From: an uncultured Actinomycetes bacterium
GTDB lineage: Bacteria; Actinomycetota; Acidimicrobiia; Acidimicrobiales; Ilumatobacteraceae
NCBI GenBank assembly: GCA_903872155.1
Contig: CAIQJP010000161.1
Span: forward strand, 62,001-126,000
Length of the DNA stretch: 64,000 nucleotides
Reading direction: 5' to 3'
Under the pieces are notes generated by a model, which saw only the letters and a program-made list of their open reading frames with translations, searched no databases and was not told the origin of the DNA. Shown here piece after piece: positions 11,302 to 52,823 of this stretch (its first letter is position 1; the number at the start of each line of letters is the position of its first letter). A program made the translations under genes and the position numbers.

Positions 11302-12645
11302 TTAAAAAGCCCGCACTGGACGGACGAAGATCGTGGCGCCCTTGCTGACGTTGATCTGACTGCCGCTGTTGAAAAGCTGGTACCACGCGAAGTCGCCGTC
11401 GAACTCAGAAGAACTCCAATAGGCGCCAATCGAAAAACCACCAAGCGGTGAGCTCACATTATAGAGATTCGTAAATATCTGATTCAACTCATCTTTCGAC
11501 GGCAAAAACCAATCTGATTGTCCACCAGAAACTAGTTCGCTGCAATAAACGGCAGCCGATGTCGCTGCCACATTTCCTGACTGAGCAACAATGTCAATAG
11601 TATTTTGTGCGCCCGTACCAATTACTGTACCGTCAGGTCCAGCAACGGCTGCAGTCTGGTTTGCTCCAGTAACCCAAGACCGTTGAACTTCAGCCCCTAC
11701 CGGTGCTGCCTCAAAATATTGGGAACCCACAGGACGATTCATATCAACATAAAAGATGATGCCACCGCCGCCGCCGGGGTCACCCACTGCACACGAACCG
11801 CCCGACGCGCACGTCCGCGTGACTGTTGCCGTGCCACCGGTGTACCCAGTTCGTGTCGTCGTGATCGTCGCTGTTGAACTCGTTCGATAAGCCACGCCCA
11901 TCACTGTGACCAAACCAGTGCCGCTGACCGCTACCGAGCCCGACGCGGTCGCTGTACCGCCCCACGTGTACAACGCACTATAGTTGCTGATCTGCACTTG
12001 GAAACCACCAGGCGCTGCAGTCTGGGTCCCAAACGTTGGAGTCAACGCCGCACCCACCACCGACGTCTGCGTGACTGTTGCCGTGCCACCGGCGTACCCA
12101 GTTCGTGTCGTCGTGATCGTCGCTGTTGAACTCGTTCCAGCAGCCACACCGCTCACCGTGATCAAACCAGTGCCGCTGACCACTACCGAGCCATTCGCGG
12201 TCGCTGCACCAGCCCACGTGTACAACGCACTGTAGTTGCTGATCTGCACCGTGAAACCATCAGCTGTAGCTGTCGTGCTTCCAAATGTTGGAGTCAACGC
12301 CGCACCCACAAGCGACGTCGTAGTCGTTGTCGCTGACGGAACAGTCGTTGTCGCTGACGGAACAGTCGTTGTCGCTGACGGAACAGTCGTTGTCGCTGAC
12401 GGAACAGTCGTTGTCGCTGACGGAACAGTCGTTGTCGCTGGTGCACACGGATCAGCCACTTGAGGCGCCAACACCAAACCACCCAGCAACACCAAAGGCG
12501 CCACCACAACCGACAATCGACCAGCTGATGCCAGCGCCCATCGCGCCACAATCACACCAGCAACCAACAAGAACAAACCAGCGATCAAAACAAACGTCGA
12601 CCCGCCAGTAGCCGGCAAATGACACATATCAACAGCAAACATCAC
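11302..12645 (-). CDS. Protein A: N-terminal LPATG, two membrane helices, Thr repeats, DUF1566-like C-terminus
   Basis: A 447-aa envelope protein of unusual order. A tiny N-tail (MMFAVDMCH) runs into LPATGG (10-15), a hydrophobic helix (16-36) and ARW, exactly a sortase sorting signal but at the N-terminus. A second helix follows (43-63), then Cys67. Next come five TTTVPSA heptads (71-105) and two near-identical 84-residue beta-rich repeats (112-195, 196-279). The C-terminal domain (about 285-447) is like DUF1566/Lcl: SDWFLPSKDELNQIF, AYWSSSEFDGD, and ending FVRPVRAF. The topology by positive charges is N-tail out, short loop in, C-terminal domain out. It is paralogous to protein B (50972-52171), and the two share upstream DNA. 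Function unknown; no sortase gene is in the window. Confidence 0.75.
   Translation of the reverse strand: MMFAVDMCHLPATGGSTFVLIAGLFLLVAGVIVARWALASAGRLSVVVAPLVLLGGLVLAPQVADPCAPATTTVPSATTTVPSATTTVPSATTTVPSATTTVPSATTTTTSLVGAALTPTFGSTTATADGFTVQISNYSALYTWAGAATANGSVVVSGTGLITVSGVAAGTSSTATITTTRTGYAGGTATVTQTSVVGAALTPTFGTQTAAPGGFQVQISNYSALYTWGGTATASGSVAVSGTGLVTVMGVAYRTSSTATITTTRTGYTGGTATVTRTCASGGSCAVGDPGGGGGIIFYVDMNRPVGSQYFEAAPVGAEVQRSWVTGANQTAAVAGPDGTVIGTGAQNTIDIVAQSGNVAATSAAVYCSELVSGGQSDWFLPSKDELNQIFTNLYNVSSPLGGFSIGAYWSSSEFDGDFAWYQLFNSGSQINVSKGATIFVRPVRAF
11809..12312 (-). repeat. Tandem duplication of about 252 bp inside protein A
   Basis: Two consecutive units (12061-12312 and 11809-12060) encode 84-residue repeats that begin (L/V)VGAALTPTFG and share SALYTW, TITTTRTGY and GGTATVT blocks. 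DNA and protein similarity are both high, which points to a recent tandem duplication of one beta-rich extracellular domain. Confidence 0.85.
12323..12440 (-). repeat. 21-bp tandem repeat encoding TTTVPSA heptads
   Basis: Five perfect copies plus a partial sixth of a 21-bp unit (plus-strand phase gtcgttgtcgctgacggaa + ca) encode the heptad TTTVPSA in protein A. Unit number could change by slippage and so alter the linker length. Confidence 0.9.
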
Positions 12646-12668: not shown

Positions 12669-12712
12669 GACATAATTCGGGCCAAAGTGACTGATGCCAA
12701 TCACCACCATAC
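12669..12712 (-). promoter_or_regulatory. Conserved 44-bp upstream element, copy 1 (protein A promoter)
   Basis: This 44-bp block differs from the one at 52192-52235 at only two positions, although the flanks are unrelated. Read on the minus strand it contains TTGGCA, 17 bp, then AATTAT, a plausible -35/-10 pair located before the protein A start. It is probably the shared promoter, possibly with an operator. Confidence 0.6.
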
Positions 12713-12758: not shown

Positions 12759-12776
12759 ACCTGCGGTTTAGGAAAC
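12759..12776 (-). repeat. tRNA-like hairpin element, copy 1
   Basis: The 18-bp plus-strand sequence acctgcggtttaggaaac is identical to 52282-52299. On the minus strand the surrounding 12763-12779 forms GCGGTTT-CCT-AAACCGC, which looks like the anticodon arm of tRNA-Arg(CCU). About 18 further bases (AGGTCGCAGGTCCGATTC) resemble a variable loop and degenerate T-arm. No D-arm or acceptor stem is present, so this is a tRNA-3'-half-like relic, hairpin or attachment site, not a tRNA gene. Confidence 0.6.
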
Positions 12777-48949: not shown

Positions 48950-50947
48950 CTAGTCGTGAATCCAGACTTTGGCGCCTTTGGGTAACAAGTTTTCAAACCA
49001 AATCAAGTCCATCACTGGGTTCGCGACTCGAATACATCCGTGCGATGCTGGATAGGCAGGAATGCTGCGTGATCCGTGCACGGCAATTCCTCCGACGACA
49101 AATTTTGGTCGATACAAACTTCCGAGATTTCCTTCGTAAACCTTTTCGTCGCGCTCTTTATAAATCTTAAAGTCGCCAACAGGCGTCTTTGCAACACCAG
49201 TAACACGGCCGTTTGACAGTTGGTCTTCTTCGTCGTAGTCCTTACCGTTACCAGTCGACACGTTGAATGTGTAGACAACTTTGCCCTCGCGTACGACGAA
49301 CGCAACTTGCTTGGCTTTATCAACTTCAAAGAAGTCGCCTGTGGTACGACCAGCGACTGGCTTGCATTGTGTTGTGTTGAGATATGCGGCGGTCGTTGCA
49401 TCGGTGACCGATGTGGCAGCCAGACCAGTCCACTTCTGAAATGCCATCACTGCTTGTTTGGTTGACAATCCATATTCGCCGTCAGCCCCCGAGTTCCAAA
49501 AACCAAGTTCGAGCAATCGCAATTGCAGACGCTTGACGGCGTCAGGTCCAGAACCTGTACGAATTGGTCCGACCGGCCAGGCAGCAACACCCACGCAACC
49601 AGATGTTGTCGCTTGCACTACTTTGCTGCGAACTGCGTAACTCGCTGTTTGTGGAATTCCTACATACCAACCAGAGATGTCCGCGATGAGCTGACCGCCA
49701 CCTTCGGTAAACACATCAAACCCGCGTGACGAGACCGGGACAACCGCATGACTCGCCACGGTTTGGTTGGAGTAAATGACGTTTGTCGTGCTCGTGCTTC
49801 GTGACGTAGCCGTCGTTGGTGAACTTCCAGCGGGAGTCACCGACACGTATCCAGCCAAGAACGCATCGGTGATGGTTGTGTTCATGGCAACCGCGGCGAT
49901 ATTCGAATGACCAAGTTGAGTTTGGACGTCTACTTCAACGGAGCCAGTTCCGGTGATGCGACCAGTAGCACGCGTATCTAGAAAACGCGACGGTGAATCC
50001 AACGGAACGAAGAGACCGTCGGTCGATTGCGGAGCGTTGCTACCAGTAAATGAGCCAACTAGATCAACGATCACATGCCCACCGCCTGATGAATAGACAT
50101 CGACTTGGCCATTTTGATTCACACTCGTGATTACTTGGTTGGCTGATATCGCGCCTATGGCAAATGAATTGAGATTTGACGAATCAGGTTTGTTATTTCC
50201 ACTTGGGAAAACCTGCCAGTAGCCCTCGCTGAGTCCAATCACTGTCACACTGAGAACTACTGCAGAAGTAGAACTAGAAATTGAATCCGGAACAGAAATA
50301 GTTCTTGTTTCGCCAGCGATCATCACTGAACTGTTTCGCGAGTCATAGATACGCGTTGGTGCGGGGCGACTCACCAAGCGACCCGTGGACGTTGCTGTTG
50401 CCGACGGCGTGTAGTAGCCAACGAGGTCGACAACAACGTTGCCACCATCACTGGAATACACACTGATGCCGCCATTGACTACCGGCACCGTGACCAAGTT
50501 TGGAACAGCGACTGCTCCGCCGTAGGTCGAGATGTAATCGTCGACATTTAATTGCGAAGCATTTGGTCGGGCTTGACCGGTGGGCCACAACGTCCAGTAT
50601 CCGGGCGCCGCTGGGCCAACCACGGTGACGTTCACGACAGCGGCTGTTACGGATGCACTGAAAAGAACACCAATCGGTCCGGTGAGCATGACTGTTCTGG
50701 TGCCACCAGCCTCAACGATTGATTGACCAGGGTTACGAGTATCAAGCACCCGTTGTGATTGCGGCAAAAGAACAAACGATGAAGCATTGGCGGGAACGTC
50801 GGTCGTTAACACAGAGGGTACAAGTACAGCAACTGATGACGCCGATGCCTTGACTTGCCGACTGCCGTAGCCCACTGAGGACAAAACAAGAACGATCAAC
50901 AGAAAAACAGTAACGAAGTACTTTGCTCGTGCCTTGATCGCTTTCAC
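48950..50947 (-). CDS. L,D-transpeptidase with repeated surface domains
   Basis: A secreted or membrane-anchored wall enzyme of 665 aa. An N-terminal hydrophobic anchor (YFVTVFLLIVLVLSSVGYG) is followed by three beta-rich repeats of about 130 residues with a P-x-R-x-x-DTR signature (SQRVLDTRNPGQ, APTRIYDSRNS, SPSRFLDTRA). A peptidoglycan-binding helix motif follows (VKRLQLRLLELGFWNSGADGEYGLSTKQAVMAFQ). The C-terminal YkuD domain has the catalytic HGSRSIPAYPASHGCIRVAN, containing the active Cys. It crosslinks peptidoglycan 3-3. The gene is 24 nt downstream of protein B and probably co-transcribed with it. Confidence 0.88.
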   Translation of the reverse strand: MKAIKARAKYFVTVFLLIVLVLSSVGYGSRQVKASASSVAVLVPSVLTTDVPANASSFVLLPQSQRVLDTRNPGQSIVEAGGTRTVMLTGPIGVLFSASVTAAVVNVTVVGPAAPGYWTLWPTGQARPNASQLNVDDYISTYGGAVAVPNLVTVPVVNGGISVYSSDGGNVVVDLVGYYTPSATATSTGRLVSRPAPTRIYDSRNSSVMIAGETRTISVPDSISSSTSAVVLSVTVIGLSEGYWQVFPSGNNKPDSSNLNSFAIGAISANQVITSVNQNGQVDVYSSGGGHVIVDLVGSFTGSNAPQSTDGLFVPLDSPSRFLDTRATGRITGTGSVEVDVQTQLGHSNIAAVAMNTTITDAFLAGYVSVTPAGSSPTTATSRSTSTTNVIYSNQTVASHAVVPVSSRGFDVFTEGGGQLIADISGWYVGIPQTASYAVRSKVVQATTSGCVGVAAWPVGPIRTGSGPDAVKRLQLRLLELGFWNSGADGEYGLSTKQAVMAFQKWTGLAATSVTDATTAAYLNTTQCKPVAGRTTGDFFEVDKAKQVAFVVREGKVVYTFNVSTGNGKDYDEEDQLSNGRVTGVAKTPVGDFKIYKERDEKVYEGNLGSLYRPKFVVGGIAVHGSRSIPAYPASHGCIRVANPVMDLIWFENLLPKGAKVWIHD

Positions 50948-50971: not shown

Positions 50972-52171
50972 CTAAAACACCCGAATAGGGCGGATGGAAC
51001 CGGCGTAGCCCTTCCAGCCACCGCCTTGGCTGCCAGTGTCGAAATTCTGAAGATTTGCGCCATCGAGACCGTACTCAAAAGTAGTCCAGTAGTAGTCAGG
51101 ATTAAAACCACTTCGTAGTGCCCCACCCTGACATACCGTTTCTGAACCCGCCACCTGGTGTGTGTCTCGAGCATATTTACATAGCTCGTTTAACTCATCT
51201 ATCGACGGCATAAACCAATCGTCCTGACCCCCTAAAACTAATTCGTTTACTGCCGCGATCGCGCTGTCCCAGTCGACTTTTGGATCGGACGAGTTGATTC
51301 CACCACAGTTGTTCTGCCAATCGGCACAGGCCACTTCAAAATATTGGGAACCCACAGCACGAGCTAAATCCTTAAAAAAGATCTTTCCCCCACTCGGACC
51401 CGGATCACCGACGCTGTAAACAACAGGTGCAACCGTCGTTGTAGTCGTAGTAGTCGTAGTTGTTGTTGTCGTCGTTGTCGTGGTCGTAGTTGTTGTCGTC
51501 GTTGTCGGTGTTGTGGATGTCGTTGTTGTTGTCGGTACAAACGTTGTTGTCGTTGTCGGTGCAAACGTTGTTGTCGTTGTCGGTGTAAACGTTGTCGAAG
51601 TGGTTGTCACGGCCATAGTCGTTGGTGCAAGGGTTGTCGAGATGTTCAACGACTCAACTGTGATCTCCTGAGCGAAACCAATACCACTCACCGGCGCATA
51701 CACCGCCAAAGTGCAGTTACCTGCAGTCAGACCTTGCGGCAGAGTCCCAGTCAACGTCACCAACCCTTGACCGTTTGCTGCCGCTAATCCAATCACTTGT
51801 GGAGTTGACCCAACGATCAATTGCACCATCTCATTTGGGGTGAATCCACCGATCACCACCGTCACCGCTCCTCCAGTGGCCACCGCAGCATTCGACAACA
51901 AGGGTGTCGAAGATGCAGGCAAACCCTCAATAACAGCAAGCGACGGAGCGTCAGTCGCAAGGTTCAAACAACTATCTGCAGTCGATGGAACCAAGAAAAG
52001 TCCACCCAACAGCACCAAAGGCACCATGGTCACAGACAGTCGACCAGCAGATGACCGCACCCAACGCGCAGCAATCACACCACCGACCAACAACGATAAA
52101 CCAGCAAGAATAAAAACATTCGTGCCACCAGTAGAAGGCAACCGGCAAACATCAAGAGCGAGCATCACCAA
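50972..52171 (-). CDS. Protein B: N-terminal LPSTG, two membrane helices, poly-Thr linker, DUF1566-like C-terminus
   Basis: A 399-aa paralogue of protein A. The N-tail (MVMLALDVCR) enters LPSTGG (11-16), a helix (18-37) with a following Arg-Trp, and a second helix (45-63). Cys68 follows, then a beta-rich domain (about 75-170: PSLAVIEGLPASSTPLLSNAAVATGGAV, and so on). A long threonine-rich linker with many consecutive Thr is next. The C-terminal DUF1566-like domain (about 250-399) has VGDPGPSGGKIFF, DWFMPSIDELNELC, YYWTTFEYGLDG and SIRPIRVF. Protein B lacks the 84-residue repeats of A. It lies upstream of the L,D-transpeptidase by 24 nt, which ties the pair to the cell wall. Function unknown. 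Confidence 0.75.
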   Translation of the reverse strand: MVMLALDVCRLPSTGGTNVFILAGLSLLVGGVIAARWVRSSAGRLSVTMVPLVLLGGLFLVPSTADSCLNLATDAPSLAVIEGLPASSTPLLSNAAVATGGAVTVVIGGFTPNEMVQLIVGSTPQVIGLAAANGQGLVTLTGTLPQGLTAGNCTLAVYAPVSGIGFAQEITVESLNISTTLAPTTMAVTTTSTTFTPTTTTTFAPTTTTTFVPTTTTTSTTPTTTTTTTTTTTTTTTTTTTTTTTTVAPVVYSVGDPGPSGGKIFFKDLARAVGSQYFEVACADWQNNCGGINSSDPKVDWDSAIAAVNELVLGGQDDWFMPSIDELNELCKYARDTHQVAGSETVCQGGALRSGFNPDYYWTTFEYGLDGANLQNFDTGSQGGGWKGYAGSIRPIRVF

Positions 52172-52191: not shown

Positions 52192-52235
52192 GACATAATT
52201 CGGGTCGAAGTGACTGATGCCAATCACCACCATAC
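52192..52235 (-). promoter_or_regulatory. Conserved 44-bp upstream element, copy 2 (protein B promoter)
   Basis: Matches 12669-12712 at 42 of 44 positions. On the minus strand TTGGCA-17 bp-AATTAT precedes the protein B start. Flanking sequence is not conserved, so this block is under selection or recently copied. Confidence 0.6.
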
Positions 52236-52281: not shown

Positions 52282-52299
52282 ACCTGCGGTTTAGGAAAC
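52282..52299 (-). repeat. tRNA-like hairpin element, copy 2
   Basis: Identical over 18 bp to 12759-12776. Here the stem is imperfect (GTTT-CCT-AAAC), but the next bases form TGTAGC-CCATT-TGCTACG, a second hairpin at the place of a T-arm. It lies just after the HNH pseudogene stop. Confidence 0.55.
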
Positions 52300-52310: not shown

Positions 52311-52823
52311 TTAGACGGGGACGAGTTCTTTTCCGTCTGATGTATAGACACTGCTAATGCCGGTGTCGTGTTCGATGGTTGTGGTGTAGCCCGCGGTTGC
52401 TTTATATCTGTTGTGTTTTCGACATAACGGGTCGCCGTTATCGGGTGATGTTGTTCCGCCTTCAGACCATGGTGTGCGATGGTCGGCTTCACACGTTAAA
52501 GCCGTGCATCCTGGCCAAATACATTTTCTTCGTCTCAAAAAGATTGCTTCTCGTGATGAACCAGTGAAAAGTCGTGATTTGCGTCCGAGATCAATCACGG
52601 TGCTCGGTGAACTCATGACAACGCGTCGTACCTGGCCGATCATTGATGCGACGATCGCATCAAACGGATCGATCGCTACACCAGCTGTGGTTTCGCATCG
52701 GCGTGAGTTGTTCGGGTGTGGTGAGACTCGTCGCTGGCTCATGGTTGACTCACCGACGTCGCCCACATACCCGAGTTCTGTGTCGTGTTGGTGGTGTGGG
52801 CTCAATCGACGTTCGTCTCCCAC
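52311..52823 (-). pseudogene. Degraded HNH endonuclease (DUF222/13E12 type), C-terminal half only
   Basis: An open frame of about 170 codons whose C-terminal 100 residues are a clear HNH domain: STVIDLGRKSRLF, then CIWPGCTALTCEADHRTPWSEGG, DNGDPLCRKHNRYK, and ending DGKELVPV. The DUF222 N-terminal domain is absent. The sequence up to about 53070 contains frame-broken remnants (for example a stretch RRQAAPHTDLTQHSDLN) and stops, so the gene is dead or truncated. The same C-terminal tail occurs as a 27-codon relic at 12792. In mycobacteria the related REP13E12 family hosts phage integration sites, which may be relevant. The domain may still fold but a functional full protein is unlikely. Confidence 0.7.

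Follow-up and report, generated by a model that had tools for sequence, protein, structure and literature searches.

The window, a 64,000-nucleotide stretch of an Ilumatobacteraceae genome assembly, carries two genes whose products begin alike (proteins A and B, Table 1). Both proteins open with M-x(5)-C-x-LPxTG, followed by a hydrophobic helix, an RW pair, a second helix and a further Cys. On rereading, the N-terminus of A was MFAVDMCHLPATGG-helix-ARW-helix-DPC-Thr-rich and that of B was MLALDVCRLPSTGG-helix-ARW-helix-DSC, which confirms the order of Cys-x, LP[AS]TGG, hydrophobic helix and ARW given in the first-pass annotation of this DNA. Translation of A from its ATG gave MFAVDMCHLPATGGSTFVLIAGLFLLVAGVIVARWALASAGRLSVVVAPLVLLGGLVLAPQVADPC, then Thr-rich repeats. 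The motif starts at residue 9 of 446 in A and at residue 9 of 397 in B, and is thus N-terminal and not C-terminal. Among the members of the family that were read (see below), just 2-6 residues precede the Cys, with no separate N-terminal secretion signal ahead of the motif. In A the C-x-LPATGG two-helix anchor is followed by a Thr-rich stretch, two ~84-aa repeats and an Lcl_C domain. The C-x-LPSTGG anchor of B is followed by a domain of ~100 residues, a Thr-rich stretch and Lcl_C. The second helix had been said to lead into a Thr-rich linker in both proteins; this holds for A but not for B, where the ~100-residue domain intervenes. Lcl_C (PF07603, formerly DUF1566) scored 39.0 bits in A and 37.6 bits in B (Pfam cut-off 34.9) and was the sole Pfam listing for either protein at E <= 1, so the DUF1566-like domain suspected earlier is present in both. 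The NCBIfam LPXTG_anchor model (TIGR01167) matched residues 9-31 of B with 16.0 bits (cut-off 15.9), and A had no match to it at E <= 1.

Table 1. Position of proteins A and B and of their N-terminal and C-terminal features in the window
Feature	Coordinates	Strand	Remarks
Protein A	11302..12642	minus	446 aa from ATG (at 12642)
A first conserved Cys (C7)	12622..12624	minus	
A LPATG (residues 9-13)	12604..12618	minus	
A hydrophobic helix 1 (~residues 16-34)	12541..12597	minus	then W..SAGR
A hydrophobic helix 2 (~residues 44-61)	12460..12513	minus	
A second conserved Cys (C66)	12445..12447	minus	
A Lcl_C domain (PF07603)	11311..11577	minus	Pfam
Protein B	50972..52165	minus	397 aa from ATG (at 52165)
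B first conserved Cys (C7)	52145..52147	minus	
B LPSTG (residues 9-13)	52127..52141	minus	
B hydrophobic helix 1 (~residues 16-34)	52064..52120	minus	
B hydrophobic helix 2 (~residues 44-61)	51983..52036	minus	
B second conserved Cys (C66)	51968..51970	minus	
B Lcl_C domain (PF07603)	50981..51319	minus	Pfam

Two copies had been noted on first reading; the source genome (2.81 Mb, 165 contigs) holds six copies of the N-terminal 68 residues, which is more than chance. In all, 795,933 bases of this genome (~6 kb of them counted twice) were scanned in six frames for open frames that have, close to their start, a Cys within 4 residues of [LIFMV][PA]xT[GA] together with a hydrophobic stretch. The scan found five of the six copies, the sixth lying outside the sampled bases, and one chance 77-codon frame. 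The GTDB species genomes yielded eight loci in six MAGs. When these MAGs were searched together with two genomes of the source genus, 16 matches were obtained, all in the six MAGs, and 13 proved to be members when read. Profile searches covered 395 genomes of the class, 396 of the phylum, 397 of the order and 221 of the bacterial family, and the class was searched again with a broader profile (395 genomes); all of these samples overlap, and the six MAGs recur in the 221-genome search with identical coordinates. A member or remnant was present in 18 of the 221 genomes, in six genera (loci read). Outside this bacterial family, the matches listed included G102 and G393, which belong to another family of the same order. 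Altogether the hairpin family comprises at least 34 motif-bearing members plus one homologue without the motif (L121) in at least 20 genomes from two bacterial families of one order, counts that are lower bounds because they cover, among the matches listed, only hits whose locus was read. The 34 consist of 32 in the main member list and the two LAxTG members of G393 found later. Weak hits that proved on reading to be C-terminal anchors or unrelated proteins were not counted as members. A viral origin was considered and rejected, as none of 27 pattern hits in IMG/VR (0/27) encodes a relative.

In-frame stops lie five codons (A) and three codons (B) upstream of the ATG. As the sequence is assembled, an internal motif is therefore excluded, which disposes of the concern, voiced on first reading, that the true start might be far upstream. 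General caution about short motifs is what speaks for a wrong start or a chance motif; with these stops before both ATGs and the same start pattern in 34 members, we regard this explanation as practically negligible.

Several genes of the family have a tRNA-Arg gene or its remnants ~90-185 bases upstream (L015, L048, L051, L054, L060). The tRNA-Arg is intact at L048 and L054, a degenerate near-full tRNA-like copy precedes the C91 copy of the source genome, and a 3' fragment precedes A, G396b and G398b; by alignment score above shuffles, tRNA-Arg-type upstream sequence was present in 6/32. An identical 18-base piece is located upstream of A (12759-12776) and B (52282-52299). The upstream sequences suggest that copies may have spread from, or into, tRNA-Arg 3' ends. 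Closer to the genes, a 37-base element with two differing bases (12669-12705 for A, 52192-52228 for B) ends 26 bases before the ATGs, and similar sequence also precedes the C91 and C22 copies of this genome. An L,D-transpeptidase with a peptidoglycan-binding domain is encoded at 48950-50947, 24 bases past the B stop on the same strand, and is possibly co-transcribed with B. Directly upstream of B is an HNH endonuclease gene (52311-52823), and the end of a similar HNH gene was seen by eye upstream of the C22 copy.

Conservation within the motif was assessed across the 34 motif-bearing members, of which 31 have LPxTG, two LAxTG and one FPxTG (FPSTG). The x residue takes seven kinds (E 11, A 7, T 7, S 6, and K, V and Y once each), and 12 different residues occur between Cys and Leu, with none at all in three members. 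Across 32 rows Pro is encoded by all four of its codons and Thr by three, so the DNA has changed while the motif residues stayed. In an alignment of 19 divergent rows the invariant positions are the first Cys, P, T, G, one helix Gly and the second Cys, at 45% mean column identity, and the motif Leu is kept in 18. This alignment was hand-picked; it leaves out near copies, truncated rows, G398b, the C91 copy and the two later-found LAxTG rows. The motif is followed by a hydrophobic stretch and then positive residues, in the order of a sorting signal. Alignment of homologues had been proposed as a check, and in it the motif, the Cys and both helices are conserved together, so this is no chance look-alike. 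Retention of L, P, T and G while x and the neighbours vary is the behaviour of a sortase motif, and the end of a helix alone would not need it.

The residues could nevertheless be structural. A plain hairpin membrane anchor, with LPxTG-like residues and Cys that no sortase cuts, would need nothing beyond the two helices, which alone suffice for anchoring, and it accommodates both the FPSTG member and L121. The latter is a 771-codon frame that keeps the hairpin and the second Cys and, read from the nearest ATG, has neither LPxTG nor the first Cys. Free variation of LPxTG with only the helix kept, which the first-pass annotation named as the observation that would tell against a signal, was absent from 34 of the 35 homologues and present in L121. 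Exact retention of L, P, T and G beside variable neighbours is unexplained by a plain hairpin, as is the occurrence of LAxTG in both the N-terminal and the C-terminal signals of G393 (below). We consider this explanation unlikely.

In all readable members (31/31) the N-tail has a charge of 0 or is negative and the loop between the helices carries +2 to +4. By the positive-inside rule this pattern would place the N-tail, the motif, both Cys and the ectodomain outside, and from it we infer a hairpin topology. The topology envisaged for A and B on first reading, with the chain returning outward through the second helix, fits this pattern. An AlphaFold model of the hairpin had helices at 12-38 and 44-58 with low confidence (mean pLDDT 64.5), too uncertain for a Cys-Cys distance.

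A search of the source genome for sortases, also suggested earlier, gave four matches to the sortase domain PF04203, all on contigs other than those of A and B. L001 exceeds the class E cut-off (164.1 versus 160), and L002 and L003 pass the general sortase cut-off only; all three keep the catalytic Cys. In L003 (G000:C14), a 621-codon frame, several surface-type repeats precede the sortase domain. The fourth, L004 (G000:C87), is a membrane sortase-domain protein in which the catalytic His and Cys are both replaced. A similar pseudo-sortase-like frame, L277, occurs in G393, a genome of the other bacterial family, and the order may thus possess a conserved pseudo-sortase. Sortase matches were found in 9/10 related genomes. 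G395, which has a member of the hairpin family, had no sortase match in its 1.6 Mb assembly, and a sortase search of the parts of G393 and G102 that had been sampled gave only the pseudo-sortase-like frame of G393.

Motif types at the two ends of surface proteins were compared within genomes. All six N-terminal hairpins of the source genome have LPxTG, and so do its C-terminal anchors (7/7), with no LAxTG in the 795,933 bases scanned; five of these seven anchors come from stretches chosen via earlier LPxTG matches, a selection that leaves only the lack of LAxTG unbiased. Three candidates were left out of the C-terminal counts as chance: the LPVTG of L285 in the source genome, an FtsW/RodA-like motif, the IPTTA of L269 in G393 and the 337-aa frame of L126. 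In G393 both hairpins are LAxTG (LASTG and LAYTG), and the C-terminal anchors are LAxTG as well (5/5), with no LPxTG in 628,174 bases scanned. LAXTG is given as the class E sortase signal in the available portion of PMC5148588. G102, with an N-terminal LPTTG, had no C-terminal anchor, LPxTG or LAxTG, in 401 kb, and the agreement thus rests on two genomes. The match of N- and C-terminal motif types within a genome favours reading by sortase and is the strongest of the indirect arguments for it; the joint difference of both ends between genomes is difficult to account for unless one and the same reader acts on both. These sequence comparisons suggest that the N-terminal motif probably works as a sortase signal, and we consider cleavage by sortase likely.

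Cleavage could also serve processing. Sortase would then cut off the N-terminal cap, and the N-terminal Gly left on the hairpin would accept another LPxTG protein. Sortases usually take such a Gly as nucleophile, a second Gly directly follows that of the motif in 23/34 rows, and the scheme would make sense of an 8-12-residue peptide being discarded. It leaves 11/34 rows, in which another residue stands there, without the second Gly, and the conservation of a Cys in the discarded part has no explanation under it; we think this use of sortase improbable.

The first Cys is found one or two residues before the motif in all 34 motif-bearing members, extending to the whole family the conservation noted for A and B. 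A second Cys, absent from the first-pass annotation, follows directly after helix 2 and is as fixed as the first. It is located 54-63 residues beyond the motif in 31/31 readable members and is also found in the motif-less L121, where it evidently does not need the first. Left out of this count were G400a (contig edge), G1102 (frameshift) and G275 (29-codon remnant); the alternative frame of G1102 runs on to a Cys and a Thr-rich stretch. The second Cys of G398b, which is counted, sits in the divergent end of a short 71-aa frame. As a control, a Cys within 4 residues before the motif was found in 0/33 C-terminal LPxTG anchors, which were read from 29 of 30 loci of the bacterial family, and in none of the 12 C-terminal anchors of the source genome (7) and G393 (5). 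Four collagen-like C-terminal anchors of another genus (L115 twice, L118, L160) are exceptions with a Cys before LPxTG, which means that a Cys at this place is not entirely confined to N-terminal signals. In L115, L118 and L160, NC-x or SC-x stands before the C-terminal LPxTGG, which sets them apart from the remaining C-terminal anchors examined.

Processing at the second Cys was evaluated as a further explanation. Helix 2 would be an internal signal peptide, and signal peptidase I or lipoprotein processing would free or lipidate the ectodomain. Divergent members do have AxA-like stretches before this Cys. Signal peptidase I-like sites after helix 2 occurred in 17/31 members, against 20.3 expected from shuffles, and are thus not enriched. 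A strict lipobox was present in 1/32 rows, and a PROSITE-like pattern in 2/32, neither of them A or B; on this count lipidation at the second Cys is rejected. In favour of processing, Gram-positive M26 proteases are cut 56 residues after LPxTG, according to the available text of PMC9637739, and this is near the spacing of the second Cys. Taken together, we hold this explanation to be quite improbable.

Two near-invariant Cys predicted to be extracellular would most simply be used as a disulfide, one partner on the piece that sortase keeps and the other on the ectodomain side; we rate this reading as plausible, though slightly short of an even chance. No VKOR oxidase was found in the source genome (0/1), which counts against one enzymatic route to the disulfide.

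The outer domains behind the anchor vary, and the anchor is in this sense modular. Besides Lcl_C in A and B (Pfam), there is a plastocyanin-type copper protein in L048 and L054 and DUF285 repeats in L100. Glycine-rich GGxGGxGG repeats follow the hairpin in L065, L069, L101, L103, L105, L106 and L121, with a common Cys-containing domain between hairpin and repeats. The two of these that were scanned, L101 and L105, had no Pfam match; the repeat proteins resemble mycobacterial PGRS. Furthermore, the ~100-residue domain of B recurs directly before the C-terminal LPATG of L047 in the source genome (58% identical over 102 residues). The hairpin and the C-terminal anchor hence look like alternative ways of holding outer parts of one kind.

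From these observations we propose the following mechanism. Helix 1 would insert with the short, non-positive N-tail outside, the positive loop between the helices would stay cytoplasmic, and helix 2 would lead the chain out again, with the Thr-rich stretch and an exchangeable outer domain following. The hairpin motif would be cut after Thr by a sortase shared with the ordinary C-terminal anchors, and the Cys-bearing N-terminal peptide (8-12 residues) would be joined to the wall or to a lipid-linked precursor. The peptide Cys would form a disulfide with the second Cys, directly behind helix 2, and the outer domain would in this way be covalently tied to the wall-bound peptide. The earlier statement that only a tiny peptide would be linked to the wall is accordingly incomplete, since the second conserved Cys could tie that peptide to the ectodomain. 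For A and B as surface proteins with a sortase-read N-terminal signal on a two-helix hairpin and a Cys-Cys disulfide, the whole model appears to us evenly poised between right and wrong. That a disulfide-stapled wall anchor, with only the Cys-bearing peptide linked to the wall and the ectodomain held through the disulfide, is a general module is a more tentative suggestion. The staple is a testable proposal and not a result. If it is true, reduction could undo the covalent link to the wall, and we know of no sortase attachment that is covalent yet reducible in such a way. The stapled anchor would then serve copper-protein-like, adhesin-like, DUF285 and glycine-rich outer domains. The N-terminal tag and the Cys pair suggest an unusual mode of wall fastening, and the near-invariant pair suggests a concrete answer to how N-terminal LPxTG proteins stay attached.

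The usual genome search for sortase substrates combines a C-terminal sorting signal with a secretion signal at the N-terminus, and would miss an N-terminal class or file it with membrane proteins. The genome of Ilumatobacter coccineum is described as having 13 LPXTG ORFs (PMC3910706, in the part available). Among the papers listed in literature searches on N-terminal sorting signals or LPXTG, on Acidimicrobiia sortases and on LPXTG in Ilumatobacter, none dealt with such a family in Acidimicrobiia. Relative to the canonical C-terminal signal (TIGR01167), the hairpin family likewise has LPxTG, a hydrophobic stretch and positive residues, and its motif type agrees with that of the C-terminal anchors in the source genome. 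It differs in being N-terminal, in continuing into a second helix and a whole ectodomain, and in the Cys before the motif. The G393 hairpins LASTG and LAYTG are like class E sortase substrates (LAXTG), from which the family differs in its N-terminal placement and in the LPxTG of most members. Lcl_C in A and B is shared with the Lcl collagen-like adhesin (NF046116); however, A scores 38.6 bits against an equivalog cut-off of 500 (NCBIfam), B is not listed, and Lcl_C is only one of several domains behind the hairpin anchor.

The closest parallel is with M26 proteases. To our knowledge, streptococcal and related proteases are the sole known N-terminal case. M26 proteases have a signal peptide and tens of residues before the motif, whereas only 2-6 residues precede the Cys in the hairpin family. 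As far as the cited texts were available, an N-terminal LPxTG is described for streptococcal and Gemella M26 proteases (PMC9637739, PMC7939560), their surface localisation is attributed to sortase A (PMC9637739), and covalent surface linkage by sortase A is reported (PMC7695701). An N-terminal signal is therefore not a wholly new mode, and the new anchoring mode considered on first reading is not supported in this respect. By these descriptions, IgA1 protease, ZmpB, ZmpC and ZmpD resemble the hairpin family in that LPxTG is close to the N-terminus and precedes the ectodomain. Unlike them, A and B have no G5 or M26 domain (Pfam, E <= 1), the hairpin family belongs to a different phylum, and it has a Cys pair, none being described for the proteases in the available portions of PMC9637739, PMC7939560 and PMC7695701. 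The hairpin family is thus apparently a second case of N-terminal LPxTG, independent of the streptococcal proteases. New in it are the occurrence in an unrelated lineage, an N-tail reduced to a minimum, the paired Cys and outer domains that can be exchanged.
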